From a virus, in IMG/VR virus record IMGVR_UViG_3300042381_000175, positions 1 to 35,573 of that record: 35,573 nucleotides of DNA; one strand, given 5' to 3'. The notes under the pieces were generated by a model, which was not told where the DNA came from, ran no database searches, and worked only from the letters and a program-made list of their open reading frames with translations. Positions 114 through 35,573 of this stretch are shown piece after piece. A program made the position numbers and the translations under genes. Each line of letters opens with the position of its first letter. Position 1 is the first letter of the stretch.

Positions 114-144
114 GACTGCTAAGAACAAGGCTAAAAAGAAATGA
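1..144 (+). CDS. Small Lys/Cys-rich protein, 3' part (joins 35428-35573)
   Basis: This is the C-terminal part of a gene that begins at 35428 and crosses the circle join. Joined once over the 113-base repeat, it encodes 58 residues with about 16 lysines. Four cysteines (C7, C10, C15, C21) have CxxC-x4-C-x5-C spacing, and the tail is basic (AKNKAKKK). The TGA stop at 142-144 overlaps the next start as ATGA, so the two are translationally coupled. The cysteines could bind a metal such as zinc, and the lysines could bind nucleic acid. I do not recognise a named family and assign no function. Confidence 0.75.
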   Translation, partial: GGECKGGKNCMMEGKEEKNGKKGGKIEIEISLPMRGSRTAKNKAKKK

Positions 145-392
145 TTAAGCGTGGTAAAGAGGAGTTCATAGGCTATAACAAGCCAAAGAAAACCCCTAAT
201 CATCCTACTAAGAGCCATGCTGTACTTGCAAAGTCAGGAGACGAGGTTAAGTTGATTCGTTTCGGGCAGCAGGGGGTTAGTGGTAGTCCAGACGGAAGTA
301 AGCGCAATGAGGCATTTAAGGCTCGTCATGCGGGTAATATTTCTAAGGGCAAGATGAGTGCAGCTTGGTGGAGTAATAAAATAAAGTGGTGA
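141..392 (+). CDS. Conserved small basic phage protein, unknown function
   Basis: The 83-residue product is basic. It has a Lys/Pro-rich N-terminus, a central stretch KLIRFGQQGVSGSPDGSKRN, and a C-terminus with a conserved-looking MSAAWWSNKIKW ending. Small proteins with a FGQQG, GSKRNEAFKARH and WW/YW-NKxKW pattern are familiar from marine and freshwater phages, but I know no function. The start overlaps the preceding stop (ATGA) and the end overlaps the next start by 7 bases, so it belongs to the late unit. Its position just before the packaging genes and its charge would suit a nucleic-acid-binding or virion role, which is inference only. Confidence 0.7.
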   Translation: MIKRGKEEFIGYNKPKKTPNHPTKSHAVLAKSGDEVKLIRFGQQGVSGSPDGSKRNEAFKARHAGNISKGKMSAAWWSNKIKW

Positions 393-928
393 TTCCTAAG
401 ACGTTAAATCTAGGCTCCGGCAAGGACTGGAAAAGACATTGCTTTAACGCAGATATATTGCTTAGAGTTAATCCTGATTGGTGGGTAGATATATCTAAGG
501 TCGAATTCGGTCAGGTTATTGATTCTCCGAGGTTCGGCAAGGTAACTATTGAGAAGGGAATGTTTAAACTTGTCGTCGCAAACGATGTTTTGGAACATAT
601 CCCTGACCTTGTGTCGTCAATGACGAATATTAAGGACATATTAGAGGTTGGTGGTCAGCTTCACATTAGCGTACCGTATGAGCTAAGTCTTGGTGCATGG
701 CAAGATCCGACACACGTTAGAGCGTTTAACGAGAATAGCTGGCTGTACTATACCGAGTGGCACTGGTATCTAGGGTGGGAAGATCGATTCAACCTATCGT
801 CAATGGAGTTTAAGCTGTCAGAAATCGGTCAGAAAATGATGGATAAGGGTATTCCTGACGATGAGATTATGCGTACTCCTAGAGCAGTAGACTCCATGAA
901 GGTTGTTTTAACTAAGATAAGTTTATAG
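386..928 (+). CDS. Class I SAM-dependent methyltransferase-like protein
   Basis: The product has 180 residues. Near the N-terminus LNLGSG (7-12) matches the glycine-rich SAM-binding motif I. NDVLEHIPD (66-74) matches the post-I/motif IV region of Methyltransf_11-type enzymes, and GGQLHISVPYE (89-99) suits the following strand. No DNA-methyltransferase catalytic motif such as DPPY is visible, so a small-molecule, sugar or protein substrate is more likely than DNA. The start is GTG at 386 or 389, overlapping the upstream stop. A glycosyltransferase follows directly and a cupin lies further on, so a glycan-modification role is plausible but unproven. Confidence 0.75.
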   Translation: MVIPKTLNLGSGKDWKRHCFNADILLRVNPDWWVDISKVEFGQVIDSPRFGKVTIEKGMFKLVVANDVLEHIPDLVSSMTNIKDILEVGGQLHISVPYELSLGAWQDPTHVRAFNENSWLYYTEWHWYLGWEDRFNLSSMEFKLSEIGQKMMDKGIPDDEIMRTPRAVDSMKVVLTKISL

Positions 929-962
929 TCGGTAGGTTTTAAGTTTACAGTCAGGAGCTTAC

Positions 963-1673
963 TTGCAAGCAATTGTTATCGCTACAGTAAATAGCCCAAG
1001 CATCCACGTACTATTGGAGAGCATTAATCAATATGCAGCAGAATTACCAATATACATTAGTGGAAATAGTCTGGAGTTATGGGGAAAAATTAGAGCAAGA
1101 CTTAAAAATGATCGAGTCGTGTTCCGACCAAATACTGCTACCAATTTCGGAGATGCGTATAATGAAATTGTCTCCTATGCGTTCAATACAGGGCATTACG
1201 ATTCATTAATCATTGCTAACGATGACGTAGTGCTAACGCCAAATACTATTGAAAAGATGCAAGAAGATTGGGATATGGTTACTAGGGAGTTCTTAACTGG
1301 CTTTCTAGGAGCGAGATCAGATTACGTATTACCAGATCAGAATATAAGAGTACCAGTAGACGAAGATACTATTGTCGGGCTGCGTTGGAATAGCGAGAAC
1401 CATATAAAGATGGTTGATGTGATTGCTCCCATATTTGCGGCTATAAGTAGGAAGGCATGGGATGTAGCACAATTCCCTAGCACTAATTGGTATTCAGACA
1501 ATATAATATGCTATGACTTAAACAAGGCTGGTTATCAGCACTTTGTAAGTCGTGGATACGTTCATCATGCAGGATCGCAGACGGTTGGAACAGACTTTGC
1601 TAAGTGCCATGAAGAACCAAGAGAGTGGATAAGAGTTAATCGACCAGATATGTACGAAGTATTTTACGCATGA
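963..1673 (+). CDS. Glycosyltransferase family 2-like protein (GT-A fold)
   Basis: The product has 236 residues. It opens with a hydrophobic strand (AIVIATVN), as GT-A enzymes do. SLIIANDDVVLTP carries an acidic pair, N86-D87-D88, where GT2 enzymes have the metal- and nucleotide-sugar-binding DxD. A later segment, SDNIICYDLNKAGY, resembles the acceptor-side acidic region. The start is TTG at 963, preceded by AGGAG at 953-957 with good spacing; no closer ATG fits. It lies between a methyltransferase and the terminase genes. It probably transfers a sugar to a phage or host surface target, but donor and acceptor are unknown. Confidence 0.75.
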   Translation: MQAIVIATVNSPSIHVLLESINQYAAELPIYISGNSLELWGKIRARLKNDRVVFRPNTATNFGDAYNEIVSYAFNTGHYDSLIIANDDVVLTPNTIEKMQEDWDMVTREFLTGFLGARSDYVLPDQNIRVPVDEDTIVGLRWNSENHIKMVDVIAPIFAAISRKAWDVAQFPSTNWYSDNIICYDLNKAGYQHFVSRGYVHHAGSQTVGTDFAKCHEEPREWIRVNRPDMYEVFYA

Positions 1674-1694
1674 CACCGGAAAGGTAATGCAAAA

Positions 1695-1994
1695 ATGGAA
1701 ACAAATAAGGTTAAAGAAACGCCGAAAATCGGTGAAGGACTAGCAGGGCCAGGTAGACCTAAAGGATTGCCTAATAGAAGCACTCAGATAGTCCGAGAGG
1801 CTATTGCTAACCTATTAGAGCGCAATGCAGGGAACATGGACAGATGGCTTAATGAGGTAGCTCAAGACGATCCTTATAAGGCACTTGATCTAATGAATAA
1901 GCTAAGTGAGTACCATATACCTAAGCTGGCTAGGACTGAGATAAGTGGCATTGATGGTGCTCCTCAACAGCACGTGGTCACATGGCAGAAGTAA
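1695..1994 (+). CDS. Putative terminase small subunit
   Basis: The 99-residue product starts with a charged flexible arm holding GPGRPKGLPNRSTQIVREA, the GRPKG-x-NR-ST signature common in short DNA-binding phage proteins annotated as small terminases. A helical segment follows (LLERNAGNMDRWLNEVAQ, then DPYKALDLMNKLSEYHIPKL). Small terminase subunits recognise viral DNA and load the large-subunit motor. The large-subunit gene lies one gene downstream, which supports the call. An AAGG-type ribosome site precedes the ATG. The last 13 bases overlap the cupin gene. A different DNA-binding function remains possible because the family is weakly defined. Confidence 0.7.
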   Translation: METNKVKETPKIGEGLAGPGRPKGLPNRSTQIVREAIANLLERNAGNMDRWLNEVAQDDPYKALDLMNKLSEYHIPKLARTEISGIDGAPQQHVVTWQK

Positions 1995-2443
1995 ATCAAT
2001 TTGACGAGCTTGAGAACTTCAAGAACTGGTGGCTAAGTTCAAGGCCGATTAATACTCCAGACTTGAATGCTCTGACTTATGTGGCTGAGACTCATGGCGT
2101 TGTCTTGTATAGACAGGATTGCTATCAGGTTGAGATGTTCCTTGTAAAGCCTAACTCTGAGATAGAGCCTCATATTCATCCGAATGTAGACTCATTTGAG
2201 GTTTACATAGGTGGTGACATTAACTTCATGTGTAATGGAGAATGGTTCGGGCAGAATGTCATTGGAAACTCTATTCGCGTTTATCCTAATAGCTGGCATG
2301 GTGGTAAGTTTGGTGAACGAGGCGGCTGCTTTATTTCTGTGCAAAAGTGGTTAAACGGTGTTGAGCCTAAGTTCGTTGGTGATGATTGGGTGGATACCAA
2401 GAACACTGGTTCCTACAAAGAAAATAGGGAATCTGATACCTAA
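1982..2443 (+). CDS. Cupin-fold protein
   Basis: The 153-residue product carries a single cupin domain. Motif 1 reads HIHPNVDSFEVYIGG, with H64, H66 and E73 as likely metal ligands. Motif 2 reads RVYPNSWHGG, with H106. Cupins are small beta-barrels that bind metals and act as isomerases, epimerases, dioxygenases or sugar-binding proteins; the sequence does not tell which. The gene is wedged between the two terminase subunits, overlapping the small one by 13 bases and sharing TAATG with the large one, so it must be co-translated with packaging proteins. It may act with the nearby glycosyltransferases, which is inference. Confidence 0.8.
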   Translation: MAEVNQFDELENFKNWWLSSRPINTPDLNALTYVAETHGVVLYRQDCYQVEMFLVKPNSEIEPHIHPNVDSFEVYIGGDINFMCNGEWFGQNVIGNSIRVYPNSWHGGKFGERGGCFISVQKWLNGVEPKFVGDDWVDTKNTGSYKENRESDT

Positions 2444-3717
2444 TGGCAGAAGTAATCGAGATCGCTTATAAGCCCCGTGAACAACAAAGGCTGATTCATG
2501 AGGCAGTAGACACGCACAGGTTTACAGTTGTAGTGGCGCATCGAAGGATGGGCAAGACTGTTAGCGCGATTAATCATCTAATCAAGGCTGCCATTGAGTG
2601 CAACAAACCAAACCCAAGATTTGCCTATATTGCTCCGACTTATGCTCAATCCAAACGTGTGGCTTGGGATTACCTGCTTGAATTTACTCGTCCTCTTGGT
2701 GCTGTTGCTAATATCAGTGAACTTAGGGTTGACTTTTGGGGTAGGCGCATTAGCCTTTACGGGAGTGATAATGCTGACAGCTTGCGTGGGCAGTATTTCG
2801 ATGGCGTTATCCTTGATGAAATAGGCGACCAGAATCCTAAGATATGGAACGAGGTTATACGTCCAGCGTTAGCCGATAGGAATACAGACGAGGCTCCTAC
2901 GTGGTGCTTATTCATTGGTACACCTAAAGGCAGGAACCATTTCGCAGAGTTCAGAGATAGAGCTAAGACTGCTGAAGGTTGGGCATTACTAGAGTTTAAG
3001 GCTAGTGATACAGGGATACTAGCGGATAAAGAACTTAAAGACGCTCGTAAGGAAATGGGCGATGACAAGTACAACCAAGAGTTTGAATGCAGCTTTGACG
3101 CAGCCGTAGAGGGTTCTTATTATGGGCAGATTATCAACAATCTTGAGGAGAAGAACCGGATCACCACTATTGAACGTGATGACTTATGTAAGTCTTATGT
3201 TGCTTGGGATTTGGGGATTAGCGATTCTACTAGTCTGTGGGTTGCTCAGGTGGTTGGAAAAGAGGTACGTCTCATTGATTACACGGAAAACCACGGTGTC
3301 GGTCTGGACTGGTACGTATCATGGCTCAAAGACAACAAGTACGAAGGCTTCGCGCAATTCCTCCCGCACGACGTAGAGGTACGTGAACTAGGTACAGGAA
3401 AGAGCCGTAAAGAGGTTTTACAGGAAGCTGGACTGGATATAACTGTAGCTCCACGATTGTCGATTGCAGATGGCATACAAGCCACTAGAAGGTTATTGCC
3501 GCAGTGCTGGTTCGATCACAAGACTAAGACAGGGTTAGATGCTCTTAGGAACTATCGCAGAGAGTATAACGAGAGGCAGCAAGTGTTCTACGATAAGCCG
3601 CTACATGACTGGTCTAGCCATGCGTCTGATGCGTTTAGATACCTAGCGATAAGCCTTGACCAAGACGAGACTTCATGGCAGTCAGATTTGCCCATTAACA
3701 CTAAATGGATTGTATAA
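2443..3717 (+). CDS. terL: Terminase large subunit (packaging ATPase and nuclease)
   Basis: The product has 424 residues, usual for the family. The ATPase domain has a Walker A variant AHRRMGKT (32-39), Walker B FDGVILDE (119-126) with catalytic E126, and the coupling motif GTPKGRNHF. The C-terminal RNase H-like nuclease shows AWDLGISDSTSLW with the first Asp, an HDVEVRE segment, and WSSHASDAFRY with the last Asp. The enzyme cuts concatemeric DNA and pumps it into proheads through the portal encoded next. Translation starts at the ATG of a TAATG overlap with the cupin gene. Terminase and portal type suggest headful packaging, in line with a circular map. Confidence 0.95.
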   Translation: MAEVIEIAYKPREQQRLIHEAVDTHRFTVVVAHRRMGKTVSAINHLIKAAIECNKPNPRFAYIAPTYAQSKRVAWDYLLEFTRPLGAVANISELRVDFWGRRISLYGSDNADSLRGQYFDGVILDEIGDQNPKIWNEVIRPALADRNTDEAPTWCLFIGTPKGRNHFAEFRDRAKTAEGWALLEFKASDTGILADKELKDARKEMGDDKYNQEFECSFDAAVEGSYYGQIINNLEEKNRITTIERDDLCKSYVAWDLGISDSTSLWVAQVVGKEVRLIDYTENHGVGLDWYVSWLKDNKYEGFAQFLPHDVEVRELGTGKSRKEVLQEAGLDITVAPRLSIADGIQATRRLLPQCWFDHKTKTGLDALRNYRREYNERQQVFYDKPLHDWSSHASDAFRYLAISLDQDETSWQSDLPINTKWIV

Positions 3718-7085: not shown

Positions 7086-8051
7086 ATGGCTATTTATAAT
7101 GCTTATGACGCTATTGGTCAGCGTGAAGATTTGACCGACATCATTTATGACATCTCCCCGACTACTACTCCATTCATGAGTTCTATCGGTAAGACTAAAG
7201 CTACGGCTGTTTACCACGAGTGGCAGACCGACTCTCTTGCAGCCGCTACTACAAATAACGCTGCTGTTGAGGGTGCTGACGCTTCCGATGCAACTTTGTC
7301 GCCTACTACTCGTTTGGGTAACTATACTCAGATTCTGCAAAAGACTATCAAAGTCTCCGGCACTCTGGATACAGTTAATAAAGCAGGTCGTAAGTCCGAA
7401 AAGGCATACCAGTTGGCTAAGGCTTCAAATGAGCTAAAGCGTGACTTGGAAACTATCCTCTTGGCTAACCAAGGTCGTTCGGCTGGTACAACTAACTCTA
7501 CTGCTCGCAAGATGGGTTCGTTGCTGTCATGGATCAAGACTAATTCGTCCGTCCAGACTAACGGTGGTGATCCAACGACTATCGGTGTATCGACACGTAC
7601 AGACGGTAACACTCGTACATTTACTGAGACTCTGCTGAAAGAAGTAGTTGCTGAGGTATTTGCTTCGGGCGGTACTCCTAAGATTCTGATGGTTGGTGCT
7701 ACTGGTAAACAGAAAGTATCTAGCTTCACAGGTCTGTCGGCTTATCGTTATAACGTCAATGCTGGTGGTGGTGGTGCTGGCGTTGGTGCTGCAACTATCG
7801 TTGGCGCGGCAGACGTTTATTTGAGCGATTTTGGTTCAATGAGCGTGGTTCCTAATATTTTCATGCGTACACGCGATGCTCTGGTGCTTGATCCTGAGTA
7901 TGCTGCAATCGCTTATCTGCGTCCTTTCATGACTAACGAGCTTGCAAAAGCTGGTGATGCTGACAAGACTCAGATTTTGGTTGAGTGCACATTGGAAGTT
8001 AAGAATGAAGCTGCTCATGGCATCATTGCTGACTTAAATATGGCACTGTAA
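7086..8051 (+). CDS. Major capsid protein (SU10-like, HK97 fold)
   Basis: The 321-residue product begins MAIYNAYDAIGQREDLTDII and continues with a DISPTTTPFMSSIGKTKA pattern, characteristic of the DUF5309/SU10 major capsid family. A GNYTQILQKTIKVSGTLDTV segment and an ANELKRDLETILLANQG helix are likewise typical. Hundreds of copies would form the icosahedral head. The start is well supported by AAGGA at 7073-7077. A strong hairpin follows the stop, suggesting a distinct end for the capsid transcript. Bases here favour T-ending third positions, as expected for a highly expressed gene. Confidence 0.93.
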   Translation: MAIYNAYDAIGQREDLTDIIYDISPTTTPFMSSIGKTKATAVYHEWQTDSLAAATTNNAAVEGADASDATLSPTTRLGNYTQILQKTIKVSGTLDTVNKAGRKSEKAYQLAKASNELKRDLETILLANQGRSAGTTNSTARKMGSLLSWIKTNSSVQTNGGDPTTIGVSTRTDGNTRTFTETLLKEVVAEVFASGGTPKILMVGATGKQKVSSFTGLSAYRYNVNAGGGGAGVGAATIVGAADVYLSDFGSMSVVPNIFMRTRDALVLDPEYAAIAYLRPFMTNELAKAGDADKTQILVECTLEVKNEAAHGIIADLNMAL

Positions 8052-8098: not shown

Positions 8099-8395
8099 AT
8101 GGACTATAGACAACAGGTTGTGCATGCGGACGGTGATGGTGGCATTATCATCGAGACTAAACAGGACGTTACTGAGATATTAGACAGTAACAACCATATC
8201 AGGGAAGCAGATAAGGCAAGACTCGGACACATTAAAGATTTGCATCACGTAGCCAGGATACCTTTTACAGTCATTGATGACTTGAATAAAAAGGGTGTTA
8301 TGAGAGGCTTTACTATCATTGATGATGTAGCGTTTGCCAAATGGCTCAATAGCTCTGATAATGCACAATGGAAAGTCTATAGGGGTACTATCTAA
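8099..8395 (+). CDS. Conserved small protein after the capsid gene
   Basis: The 98-residue product has the order DVTEILDSNN, HHVARIPFTVIDDLNKKGV, FAKWLNSSDNAQW. Small proteins with D-V-x-x-I-L, then H-V-A-x-I-P, then W-L-N-x-x-x-N-x-x-W/Y are very common directly downstream of capsid genes in podoviruses, but their role is unknown. A head-completion or minor capsid role would suit the position. The ATG is preceded by GAGGA. The stop shares TAATG with the following glycosyltransferase. Confidence 0.75.
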   Translation: MDYRQQVVHADGDGGIIIETKQDVTEILDSNNHIREADKARLGHIKDLHHVARIPFTVIDDLNKKGVMRGFTIIDDVAFAKWLNSSDNAQWKVYRGTI

Positions 8396-9081
8396 TGGGT
8401 ATAACAGTTGGTGTATGTGTTCCAGCACGTGACGAGGTTCATACAGGATTCGCGTTTGACTTTGCGAAGATGGTGGGACGAGATTCTAAGTTTCGCTGTG
8501 GTTCTGGTGAGAACGGGCTGAAGTTATATACGATGGCAGGGACGTTGATATTCGATCAGAGAGAAAAGCTGGTTGATACGGCGTTAAAGGAAGGCTGCGA
8601 CGTTATCCTGTTTATTGACTCAGATATGCGGTTTCCTAGCGATACGATAGATATATTGTTGAGCAGGGATGTACCGATTGTTGGGGTTAATGCGGTAACT
8701 AGACGTAAGCCGACGCTACCTACGGCATTGAATTTAGATTTACAAAAAGACAAAGATGGCAACATTATTAGTCACGCTTGGCATAAAATAGACTCTAAAG
8801 GAAAAGAAGGAATAGAGCCTTGTACTGCTGTAGGTGGCGGTGTTGTAATGATTCGTAAAGAAGTATTCGAGGCGATTAAGAAGCCTTGGTACGACGTAGG
8901 ATGGGGTTCTAAGGGAATTATAGGCGAGGATGTACATTTCTGCGTCAAGGCCTTAGATAACGGATTCCAGACGTATGTAGATCACAGTCTGTCTAAGCAT
9001 ATCGGTCACATTGGTACGTATGAGTATCGGTGGGAAGATGTAGAGGATGGGGCTGTTGAAAGACACAATTCAGGGAATTAG
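8395..9081 (+). CDS. Glycosyltransferase-like protein in the structural block (GT-A fold)
   Basis: The product has 228 residues. It opens TVGVCVPARDEVHTGFAFD, the first strand and nucleotide-binding loop of GT-A enzymes. CDVILFIDSDMRFPSD carries the DxD motif D75-S76-D77. The later GGGVVMIRKEVFE and IGEDVHFCVKALDNGF segments match the acceptor site and the acidic catalytic region of GT2 families. It sits between a head gene and the head-tail adaptor, coupled by TAATG to the former. It may decorate virion proteins or a host surface glycan. It is not an obvious close copy of the enzyme at 963-1673. Confidence 0.78.
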   Translation: MGITVGVCVPARDEVHTGFAFDFAKMVGRDSKFRCGSGENGLKLYTMAGTLIFDQREKLVDTALKEGCDVILFIDSDMRFPSDTIDILLSRDVPIVGVNAVTRRKPTLPTALNLDLQKDKDGNIISHAWHKIDSKGKEGIEPCTAVGGGVVMIRKEVFEAIKKPWYDVGWGSKGIIGEDVHFCVKALDNGFQTYVDHSLSKHIGHIGTYEYRWEDVEDGAVERHNSGN

Positions 9082-9083
9082 CG

Positions 9084-9692
9084 ATGACGGATTACAGTTC
9101 GTTAAAGAGTACGATAGCTAATTATTTAGCCAGGAGTGATTTAACATCTGTAATACCTGACTTTATACGATTAGCTGAAGAACGACTACGTAGAGATTTA
9201 AGATCGCGTCAGATGCTTGTAGTGGCTACGGCTAATACAACGTCGGGCGATTCTACGCTTGGGCTACCTTCTGACTTCTTGGAGATGCGAGATATACACT
9301 TGCAGACTACACCAAGGTCACCAGTAACCTATTTTTCCCCTAATACTTTCTATGCAAAGGCTAGGGCTACAGATATAGGCAAGCCTGTTAATTACACTGT
9401 ACTTGCTGCTGAAATACAGTTTGCTCCTATTCCTGATACTGCTTATAGCGTACAGATGCTTTATTACGCAAAGCCTGTGCTATTAAGCGATACAAATTCC
9501 TCAAATGTATTTCTTGCTAACTATCCAGATGCTTTGTTGTACGCTTCTCTGGGTGAGGCAGAACCGTATTTGATGAATGATGCTAGATTGCAAACTTGGG
9601 CTGCTTTATATGAGCGTTCGATTACTGCGATTAACATTGCGGATCAATCGAGTGAGTATGGTGGTCAACCTATGTCTATGTTTTCTTCGTGA
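9084..9692 (+). CDS. Head-to-tail adaptor (SU10 adaptor-like)
   Basis: The 202-residue product begins MTDYSSLKSTIANYLARSDL and continues IPDFIRLAEERLRRDLRSRQM, the typical N-terminal helices of the SU10/gp4-type adaptor family. The LGLPSDFLEMRDIHL and IQFAPIPDTAYSVQMLYYAK stretches in the beta-rich middle are also family hallmarks. The adaptor forms a ring below the portal and connects it to the tail nozzle. Start at ATG 9084 is supported by AGGGAAT upstream. Order after capsid genes matches related podoviruses. Confidence 0.88.
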   Translation: MTDYSSLKSTIANYLARSDLTSVIPDFIRLAEERLRRDLRSRQMLVVATANTTSGDSTLGLPSDFLEMRDIHLQTTPRSPVTYFSPNTFYAKARATDIGKPVNYTVLAAEIQFAPIPDTAYSVQMLYYAKPVLLSDTNSSNVFLANYPDALLYASLGEAEPYLMNDARLQTWAALYERSITAINIADQSSEYGGQPMSMFSS

Positions 9693-31215: not shown

Positions 31216-32206
31216 TATTTTTGCAATAGCGGAACGACTTTACGACGATCGCAATATTATCAAGTCTCAGAACATTGATGTTGATAAGTACCTTAAAGGA
31301 ACTGATCTATCGGCACAGGTTAAATCAGCGGCTACATGGTTAGATGAGATATACCAGAACTACATTGATCCAGAGCAGACAGCAGATGCCGTTATGCCAT
31401 GGCCTAAGACACACGCAGACGTTAAATTTAGGTTAGGTGAGGTTACGGTATACGCAGGTGGTAACGGAGGCGGTAAGTCTCTTGTAACAGGTCAGATTGC
31501 ATTAGGATTGATTAAGCAAGATAAGAAAGTATGCATTGCTAGTTACGAAATGAAACCTGTAACTACCATCGTTAGGATGCTAAGGCAGTTTGCTGGTGAG
31601 AATATTAGTGTGCCATTAACTCACGATAAGGAAGGATACATTCGTGGGCTTTTAGGACGTTTTACGGGATTTATTGACGAGAACTTATACCTTTACGATC
31701 AGCAAGGTTCTACGACTGCTCAAAAAACTATAGCAATGGCTAGGTACTGTGCTGTTGAGTTAGGGATACAGCATATTTTTATCGACTCGTTAATGAAATG
31801 CGTAAGTGGTGAAGATGCGTTAAACGAACAGAAATCCTTTGTTGATGAGCTTTGTGCATTGGCTAGAGACCATAACGTACATATCCATCTGGTTCACCAT
31901 ATCCGAAAGTTGCAGTCAGAGGAGATACAGCCTGGCAAGACTGACTTAAAAGGTTCAGGATCAATTGCTGATCAGGTAGATAACGTGTTCTTAGTTTGGA
32001 GAAATAAGAAGAAAGAGAACGCTCGTAGGAACAATGAGGACTATGACGAGAAGCAGCCAGATATGTTTCTAATGTGCCAAAAGCAGCGTAATGGTGAGGC
32101 TGAGGAGTTTTATGGATTGTATTTCGAGCACAACAGCCAGCAGTTCATTGAGGTGCAAGGTGGACAGCCGATAGACTTTGATAACCGTGGGGCTTTTCGT
32201 GCATGA
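31205..32206 (+). CDS. DnaB-like replicative helicase (SF4)
   Basis: The 333-residue product is a RecA-fold hexameric helicase domain. Walker A is GGNGGGKS (85-92), Walker B is HIFIDSLMK, and IHLVHHIRK and LKGSGSIADQVDNVFLVWRN give the later helicase motifs (H3/H4 and the arginine-finger region). The N-terminal 60 residues are a short linker, not a DnaB N-domain or a primase. It unwinds DNA at the fork. Its start overlaps the zinc-finger gene by 11 bases. Confidence 0.9.
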   Translation: MSDNIFAIAERLYDDRNIIKSQNIDVDKYLKGTDLSAQVKSAATWLDEIYQNYIDPEQTADAVMPWPKTHADVKFRLGEVTVYAGGNGGGKSLVTGQIALGLIKQDKKVCIASYEMKPVTTIVRMLRQFAGENISVPLTHDKEGYIRGLLGRFTGFIDENLYLYDQQGSTTAQKTIAMARYCAVELGIQHIFIDSLMKCVSGEDALNEQKSFVDELCALARDHNVHIHLVHHIRKLQSEEIQPGKTDLKGSGSIADQVDNVFLVWRNKKKENARRNNEDYDEKQPDMFLMCQKQRNGEAEEFYGLYFEHNSQQFIEVQGGQPIDFDNRGAFRA

Positions 32207-32748
32207 TACGCGCAGCTATATTAGAAGATGTTCCATACATTATAAGTTTGTCAAAAAAGGAAAGTCTTTCTCTTGGTTTTATTCCTAGTCCAGCTTATAC
32301 AGCAGCAATTACAGGTCATAAATCAGGTAAACGATGGAGCACTACCTGTAATGACAAAATATTTGTATGTGAAGAAAATGGCGATTTAGTTGGATTTGTA
32401 ATGTTTAGCTACGGGAAAATATCTAAATGTAATCAAATTTGTATACAAGAAGATGCTAGGTTAATTGAACGTGGTAAAGCATTGTTATCTGCTGCAATCA
32501 GTCATGGCAATTTGGTAGGTAGAGAGGATTTTGCTTGTGGTTGTGCTGATGATCTAGCAAGTAACTTTTTCTGGACTCAAATGGGTTGGGTAAAAATAGG
32601 TGACAGAAAAGGAATAAGCCATAAAAACACATGGAAAGAAACCAGCAAGCGAAAGATTAATATTTATCGTTTTCAAACTAATAGTTTATTTATAACTGAT
32701 TTTGGTTTAATTATTCCAAAGCAAGGTGAAACAATTGCAATTTTATAA
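32203..32748 (+). CDS. GNAT-like acetyltransferase, AT-rich gene
   Basis: The 181-residue product starts with the GNAT opening IRAAILEDVPYIISLSKKES, then IPSPAYTAAI, the strand pair DKIFVCEENGDLVGFVMFSY and the helix-preceding loop ARLIERGKALLSAAISHG, where R-x-x-x-x-G-x-A holds the acetyl-CoA pyrophosphate site in altered form. FFWTQMGWVKIGDRKGI is the typical last strand. The substrate is unknown. It is coupled to the helicase by ATGA. The gene looks richer in A and T than its neighbours, which may reflect recent acquisition. Confidence 0.68.
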   Translation: MIRAAILEDVPYIISLSKKESLSLGFIPSPAYTAAITGHKSGKRWSTTCNDKIFVCEENGDLVGFVMFSYGKISKCNQICIQEDARLIERGKALLSAAISHGNLVGREDFACGCADDLASNFFWTQMGWVKIGDRKGISHKNTWKETSKRKINIYRFQTNSLFITDFGLIIPKQGETIAIL

Positions 32749-34592: not shown

Positions 34593-34734
34593 GAAGGTAG
34601 CTAAGGTCATGACTGAGTTCGGTAAGGGTGAATTGCACTCTGGCAAAGGAGGCCCTGTAGTTAAGTCTCAACGCCAAGCAGTCGCTATTGCTCTTTCATC
34701 TGCTGGAGTTTCAAAGAAGAAGAAAAAAGGCTAA
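34567..34734 (+). CDS. DUF6496-like small basic protein
   Basis: The 55-residue product is KKSKAAKKVAKVMTEFGKGE, then LHSGKGGPVVKSQRQAVAIA and LSSAGVSKKKKKG. M-x-E-F-x-x-G-x-L-H-S-G, then V-K-x-x-x-Q-A-x-A-I-A-L-S-x-A-G, is the DUF6496 signature. AAGGAA lies 8 bases before the ATG. It overlaps the nuclease gene by 26 bases, and its 3' 50 bases lie antisense to the end of the HNH gene that follows. Basic charge suggests nucleic-acid binding. Function unknown. Confidence 0.78.
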   Translation: MMKKSKAAKKVAKVMTEFGKGELHSGKGGPVVKSQRQAVAIALSSAGVSKKKKKG

Positions 34735-35227
34735 GTTCAAGTTTTTGATGTTCTGAATTTGTTAATACTTGTAGATTTTCAATTTTGTTATCTGTTGGAT
34801 TGTTATTAATATGATGAACGTGTTCATGAAATTCAAGTTTGCGTCCTAAGTGCTGTTCCATTACGTATCTATGTTCGCGCACTTGTTTACCATTAACTCT
34901 AATAACAATGTACTTCCTTTGTTCTGTTTTACCTGCTCTAAGCATTAATGGGCTATTGTTTCTGGCTTTCTCTGAAATTTCTGGATGAGCAAGAGTGGTG
35001 CATCTACGAGAGCAAAATTTTGCAGTATTTTCTCTATTTTTTGCTGCATAAAACATAGTTCCACATTGCAAGCAGTTATAATTTTTGCCATTTTTACGTT
35101 TTTCTGCTCTTGCTTTTCCATGTATTAAAGCAACATGTTTTGATGAGCAAGAACGAGAACAAGATTTAGTTGTTTTTCTTGATGGAATAAATTCTTTATC
35201 ACAAGAGATACATTTAATTGGTTTCAT
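34685..35227 (-). CDS. HNH endonuclease with two zinc-finger modules (homing type)
   Basis: The 180-residue product has two similar Cys modules: CISC and CSRSC (C6, C9, C23, C27), then CLQC and CSRRC (C52, C55, C72, C76), for DNA contact. The C-terminal HNH_3 nuclease domain reads VREHRYVMEQHLGRKLEFHE, then HVHHINNNPTDNKIENLQVL. This is a free-standing homing endonuclease. It is the only leftward gene in this stretch and looks AT-richer than its surroundings, both signs of recent mobility. Its 3' end overlaps the DUF6496 gene antisense by 50 bases. Confidence 0.88.
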   Translation of the reverse strand: MKPIKCISCDKEFIPSRKTTKSCSRSCSSKHVALIHGKARAEKRKNGKNYNCLQCGTMFYAAKNRENTAKFCSRRCTTLAHPEISEKARNNSPLMLRAGKTEQRKYIVIRVNGKQVREHRYVMEQHLGRKLEFHEHVHHINNNPTDNKIENLQVLTNSEHQKLELSLFSSSLKLQQMKEQ

Positions 35228-35431: not shown

Positions 35432-35573
35432 AAGGTATGAAATCTTGTCCAAAATGCAAGGGCGGTGAATGTAAGGGTGGTAAGAATTGCATGATGGAAG
35501 GTAAGGAAGAAAAGAACGGCAAGAAGGGTGGCAAGATTGAGATTGAGATTTCATTGCCTATGCGCGGTTCACG
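35428..35573 (+). CDS. Small Lys/Cys-rich protein, 5' part (continues at 1-144)
   Basis: ATG 35428 begins the 58-residue gene whose stop is at 142-144 across the circle join. The visible part gives MKGMKSCPKCKGGECKGGKN and its continuation up to the window end. It is coupled to the gene before by ATGA. See the entry at 1-144 for the whole protein. Because the last 113 bases repeat the first 113, this reading frame is complete only on the closed circle. Confidence 0.75.
   Translation, partial: MKGMKSCPKCKGGECKGGKNCMMEGKEEKNGKKGGKIEIEISLPMRGS
35461..35573. repeat. Terminal direct repeat, right copy (circular closure)
   Basis: Exact second copy of bases 1-113. Counting it once gives a circle of 35460 bases. 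Confidence 0.95.

Follow-up and report, generated by a model that had tools for sequence, protein, structure and literature searches.

The window analysed here is the whole 35,573-nt stretch of the viral record IMGVR_UViG_3300042381_000175. Its ends carry an exact 113-bp terminal repeat (positions 1–113 are identical to 35461–35573), and the genome is therefore apparently complete; an assembly artefact was ruled out because dozens of separate contigs show the same gene orders. A gene for a small phrog_7595 protein (141–392, plus strand, as are all genes up to GT2 below; 3.6e-32) forms the upstream edge of a pre-terminase island and overlaps by 7 nt the gene for a SAM-dependent methyltransferase, MT (386–928, GTG start). 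MT is followed by its partner GT1, encoding a GT-A fold glycosyltransferase (963–1673, TTG start), by a putative terS (1695–1994), by a cupin gene (1982–2443) and by terL, the gene for the terminase large subunit (2443–3717; phrog_2472, 1.8e-37; phrog_2, 8.2e-37). The cupin gene shares 13 nt with terS and 1 nt with terL, and the 13-nt junction repeat ATGGCAGAAGTAA occurs both where terS stops and the cupin starts (1982–1994) and at the start of terL (2443–2455). Further downstream lie the genes for the major capsid protein (7086–8051; phrog_1328, 2.3e-108) and for a second GT-A type glycosyltransferase, GT2 (8395–9081; phrog_1574, 3.9e-20), whose downstream neighbour is an adaptor gene (9084–9692). 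These positions bear out the initial annotation, which had placed a methyltransferase and a GT2-like enzyme ahead of terS, a cupin overlapping both terminase genes, and a second glycosyltransferase at 8395–9081.

The terS assignment is putative and is based on position, size and a conserved overlap with terL, its profile matches being PHROGs of unknown function only. The window TerL shares 63–65% identity with its counterparts in a Manatee Spring phage and Methylophilales phage Venkman; for HTVC010P-type pelagiphages the figure is about 45%. Venkman and the HTVC010P-type phages share the window's order of terL, portal, scaffold and capsid genes, whereas MT, GT1, GT2 and the cupin were not detected in the examined stretches of their genomes. 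The comparisons below draw on the best 80 loci at most per similarity search; counts are among the matches listed, contigs of one lineage within them are not independent, and some gene-context labels rest on position.

The MT product matches Methyltransf_23 at 6.5e-06, slightly below the curated cut-off; its SAM motifs are intact, with LNLGSGKDW and ANDVLEHIPD kept in relatives, and it weakly matches a D-glucose O-methyltransferase. GT1 does not reach the curated cut-off of Pfam Glycos_transf_2 (E=0.087, 13.2 bits versus 23.3). It models confidently as a GT-A fold (GT2-like) glycosyltransferase: the AlphaFold2 model (pLDDT 85.6) retrieved GT-A enzymes with Foldseek (best 5.1e-10, probability 1.00), among them GnT-I, collagen galactosyltransferase, GlfT2, TarP and SpsA. 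The DxD-like motif N86-D87-D88, the predicted catalytic acid D179 (the SDN/GDN aspartate) and the stretch YVHHAGSQ are invariant in 16 relatives. PDB sequence searches with GT1 and GT2 gave nothing useful, GT1 had no match among 50,697 phage records, and a wider GT1 search led mainly to the same lineage again. PADLOC, which covers known defence genes, returned nothing for MT or the cupin; its weak match of GT1 to a TIR defence gene (1.6e-3) was judged to be chance because GT1 has a GT-A fold.

In the MT-based search, GT1 lies within 600 nt downstream of MT in 73 of the 74 testable distinct loci listed, and the two reading frames overlap in 44 of the loci listed. Among the listed terL-selected contigs with enough upstream sequence, GT1 is present in all 21 and MT in 14. 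When the search was turned around, the ORF chosen upstream of GT1 in the 86 distinct loci listed was MT in 59 cases and a second methyltransferase type in 15; the other 12 mostly carry another glycosyltransferase, one of which was tested (Glycos_transf_2, 2.6e-18). Two related loci (L024 and L025) have an acetyltransferase-like ORF ahead of MT. Judged from these gene orders, MT and GT1 are a real, strictly linked unit, of which GT1 is core in this phage lineage. The strict pairing is new; phage glycosyltransferases as such are already a known kind.

GT2 belongs to phrog_1574, with IDSDMRFP and GED conserved. It was found adjoining the capsid gene in 28/28 testable terL-selected relatives among the matches listed, and in Manatee Spring and Microcystis phages, where it is 30–54% identical to the window protein, it follows the capsid gene directly or one small gene later; a cultured example of a relative with a capsid-adjacent GT2 is Microcystis phage Mel-JY34. 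It is, in other words, a glycosyltransferase linked to virion genes, as expected for virion glycosylation. According to PMC11256854 and PMC12619734, glycosyltransferases of mycobacteriophages Che8 and Rita have been proposed to decorate the capsid (Freeman et al. 2023). The window resembles that system in that GT2 adjoins the capsid gene, but differs in that GT1 is non-homologous, strictly paired with MT and placed ahead of the terminase.

The strict linkage of MT to GT1 and the core status of GT1 and GT2 are explained most economically by glycan building late in infection, and the virion is the most likely target because GT2 is locked beside the major capsid gene and by analogy with the mycobacteriophage capsids. 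We infer both the late expression of the three genes and the nature of the glycan target from this arrangement. MT and GT1, together with GT2 in the capsid region, would form a glycan-building unit made late in infection, in which the glycosyltransferases would draw on host nucleotide-sugars and MT would methylate either a sugar or its acceptor. The second methyltransferase type, another glycosyltransferase or an acetyltransferase could serve as alternative partners, so that the product would differ between strains; an invariant core whose modifiers change, linked to late genes, is what variable glycan decoration would be expected to look like. The glycan-building role that the initial annotation had proposed for the whole group of genes is in this respect supported for MT, GT1 and GT2, but not for the cupin, as discussed below. 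A capsid-linked GT2 and a fixed GT1-MT pair in an uncultured lineage make virion glycosylation testable beyond mycobacteriophages.

The same three genes could instead alter the host cell surface, for example the O-antigen, against superinfection, and we regard this as unlikely, although PMC12619734 notes phage glycosyltransferases that modify host serotype and the weak D-glucose O-methyltransferase match gives MT relatives in sugar pathways. Gtr-type serotype-conversion clusters combine a membrane flippase with membrane-anchored glycosyltransferases; here, none of MT, GT1 and GT2 has a hydrophobic segment of the kind that forms membrane helices, and Pfam and PHROG profiles recognised no flippase among the window ORFs scanned. 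Their position within the packaging and capsid region would imply late action, at a stage when excluding superinfecting phages is least important, and GT2 stays beside the capsid gene even in distant phages. Against a virion target stands the possibility that host surface glycans or DNA are the substrates of GT1 and MT.

The window cupin has no Pfam match of its own. Cupin_2 is grazed by 10 of 15 family members (best E=0.0013), no Pfam, NCBIfam or PHROG threshold is passed by the family, and no PHROG scores above chance. Its AlphaFold2 model (pLDDT 82.5) retrieved RmlC-like cupins with Foldseek (best 1.7e-05), and by this model the protein is a member of the cupin superfamily, with the double-stranded beta-helix fold and HxH...H metal residues. 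The candidate metal ligands H64, H66, D70, E73 and H106 are invariant in 20 diverse members. Phosphomannose isomerase (7zvy), KdgF (5fq0) and the uncharacterised 3h8u share the fold and the HxH...H metal-site residues; the window protein differs from them in identity (at most 20%, at a TM-score of about 0.5), and its family, unlike RmlC-like cupins, has additional conserved blocks at the N-terminus (DDLExFKxWW) and the C-terminus (QKWLNGxxPxxVGxDW). The structural search proposed earlier for comparison with sugar-nucleotide epimerases and isomerases recovered an RmlC-like fold, but this fold does not fix a sugar substrate: phosphomannose isomerase and KdgF stand at one end of the matches and quercetinases at the other, dioxygenases are equally among them, and no specific family match to epimerases or isomerases of the RmlC, FdtA or PMI type was obtained. 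Assignment to a known cupin enzyme class was likewise rejected, as Pfam, NCBIfam, PHROGs, PDB sequence searches and Foldseek led to generic cupins only. Thiol dioxygenases have a metal site of three histidines and no acid. PCO_ADO is grazed by eight family members (best E 0.016), and a thiol dioxygenase is not favoured because invariant acids come after the HxH of the cupin.

No member of the family turned up in 50,697 phage records, and a scan of 84,980 genomes yielded two distant loci in metagenome-assembled genomes (MAGs), with 42% and 34% identity, neither of which is an obvious donor. Both are on short contigs (L242:654-1271 and L243:598-1134) on which genes next to the cupin look bacterial (purN- and tRNA-synthetase-like, and glycine-cleavage-like, respectively); they are possibly phage remnants or rare cellular homologues. 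No terminase-linked phage cupin was found in the literature searched. Phage cupins and accessory genes are already known kinds, and what is previously undescribed is this almost virus-only, terminase-associated family. The cupin looks to be under tighter constraint than its neighbours, with a dN/dS of 0.049 at dS 0.39, compared with 0.117 for GT1, 0.078 for GT2 (dS 0.48) and about 0.25 for terS (dS 0.6); other cupin pairs gave 0.016–0.026 and terL 0.07–0.10, values for which, as for most pairs compared, dS is saturated.

Cupin genes of this family occupy nine kinds of gene context. In addition to the terS-cupin-terL order of the window, they are found between terL and the portal gene of phages with a phrog_38 terminase (25 of the 51 distinct members). 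In other phages the cupin follows an SU10-type portal gene or separates a capsid protein gene from an adaptor gene; elsewhere it precedes tail/connector-like genes, terS together with a phrog_979 terminase, or a phrog_3717 terminase (L198). It also comes after a tail-type gene pair (L044), and a single member is flanked by ribonucleotide reductase and thyX (L041). In 50/51 distinct members, the cupin is thus found within or next to genes for packaging, head, connector or tail. Among the matches listed, by comparison, the tested glycosyltransferase and methyltransferase families are near the cupin in only 2 of the 66 loci that have no terL of the window's type downstream, namely L198 (GT1 and the second methyltransferase type) and L204 (a GT2-family match), a co-occurrence that is a lower bound because many cupin loci are just 4–16 kb long. 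Conversely, none of the 73 terL-selected relatives listed with sequence upstream of terL has the cupin, and the closest terL relatives carry GT1 and GT2 without it.

From these distributions, the cupin is best described as independent mobile cargo that has moved between very different phages. Two observations count against such independence: in the window it shares an operon with GT1 and MT, so that a functional link may exist in this lineage, and in L198 GT1, the second methyltransferase type and the cupin occur together. On balance, the locus probably holds two separate things at one spot, a glycan unit of MT, GT1 and GT2 whose target is most likely the virion, and a mobile cupin acting late. 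Its constraint, rarity and sharing across different packaging modules speak for an enzyme with a widespread substrate rather than for a structural component; we infer that it is probably a small enzyme whose substrate is common to many hosts rather than one phage's own proteins. A further-reaching proposal, which we put forward tentatively and as appreciably less probable, is that the cupins are a virus-specific family of metalloenzymes acquired by very different phages for one conserved late reaction, with the terS/terL overlap as a docking site for cargo. With the same reserve, that reaction might, for example, be the oxidation or isomerisation of a metabolite of the host or of a side chain in the virion, and would be one performed by no described phage gene. 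That a strongly conserved family almost without cellular relatives is shared by phages whose packaging genes differ suggests a late-infection reaction that has so far gone unrecognised.

A structural or accessory role for the cupin in the packaging machine is doubtful: most distinct members do adjoin terS, terL or the portal gene, and the constraint on them is very strong, but the gene is dispensable, being absent from nearly all terL relatives, similar cupins occur in phages with terminases of different PHROG groups, the candidate metal ligands are invariant, and one cupin sits between ribonucleotide reductase and thyX. Still less probable is a single sugar pathway of MT, GT1, cupin and GT2, in which the cupin would be a sugar or sugar-nucleotide isomerase or epimerase. 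The four genes share an operon in the window, the fold matches include phosphomannose isomerase and KdgF, and one family member grazes WbuC, a cupin of O-antigen clusters (E 0.015, below the cut-off). The fold matches equally include dioxygenases, however, cupin relatives elsewhere are almost never near these glycosyltransferase and methyltransferase genes, and the relatives that do have MT, GT1 and GT2 lack the cupin in 73 of 73 slots. The initial proposal of one pathway had been made conditional on homologues co-occurring, and on these counts it was rejected for the cupin.

In the tree, the window-type cupins group in a single clade (96/96), which lies within a supported clade that otherwise consists of terL-cupin-portal members and L198, as expected from one transfer into the window lineage. 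Of 109 distinct slots in relatives, 69 have overlapping terS and terL genes, and those without an insert mostly have a single ATGGCAGAAGTAA-like stretch that is itself the terS/terL overlap. In the window, the 13-mer is present twice and brackets the cupin (0.11 matches are expected by chance), and the first residues of the window cupin, MAEV, are a copy of the start of terL that most cupins from other lineages lack. In relatives, HNH-type, DNA-methyltransferase and other inserts are also found at this position and nearly always keep the left junction; an orphan DNA methyltransferase insert (L165/L171) has the repeat at both ends. We propose that the window lineage took up the cupin once, from phages with the terL-cupin-portal order, and that it inserted into the 13-nt terS/terL overlap, borrowing the start codon of terL, in a way that would leave translational coupling possible. 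A gene arriving in this slot can, as read from the junctions, keep the translational overlap of the terminase operon, and the cupin would exemplify how accessory genes dock there without breaking it.

The least probable reading is that GT1 and GT2 place sugars on modified bases of the phage DNA. Precedent exists in viral glycosyltransferases that take part in DNA hypermodification (Pyle et al. 2024, as cited in PMC12619734), and the same island also contains orphan DNA methyltransferases in relatives. Among those window ORFs that were scanned, however, neither a thymidylate-synthase-like gene nor a hydroxymethylase gene was recognised, and the glycosyltransferase genes sit with late structural genes.

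Several further genes were observed around these loci. In relatives, a large and variable protein family, absent from the window, is the commonest occupant of the gap between GT1 and terS (L065:4910-6001, L193:5334-7430, L198:4304-5500); one member has an ART-PolyVal ADP-ribosyltransferase domain (3.5e-07). The pre-terminase island of relatives also contains fusions of ParB-N with N6/N4 DNA methyltransferases (L055:409-1560, L018:8378-9562) and therefore holds DNA-modification cargo as well. In terL-cupin-portal phages (L218, L212, L200/L201), the gene adjoining the cupin can be that of a 2OG-Fe(II) oxygenase (L218:5685-6227; 8.8e-16) or, in L201, a small ORF without assignment, so that this slot may favour beta-helix oxygenases. 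Within the window, a GNAT acetyltransferase-like ORF (32203–32748; Acetyltransf_7, 1.6e-04) lies close to replication genes, and an HNH_3 endonuclease gene on the minus strand (34685–35227; 5.2e-11) would, in a circular genome, come close to the island's upstream edge.
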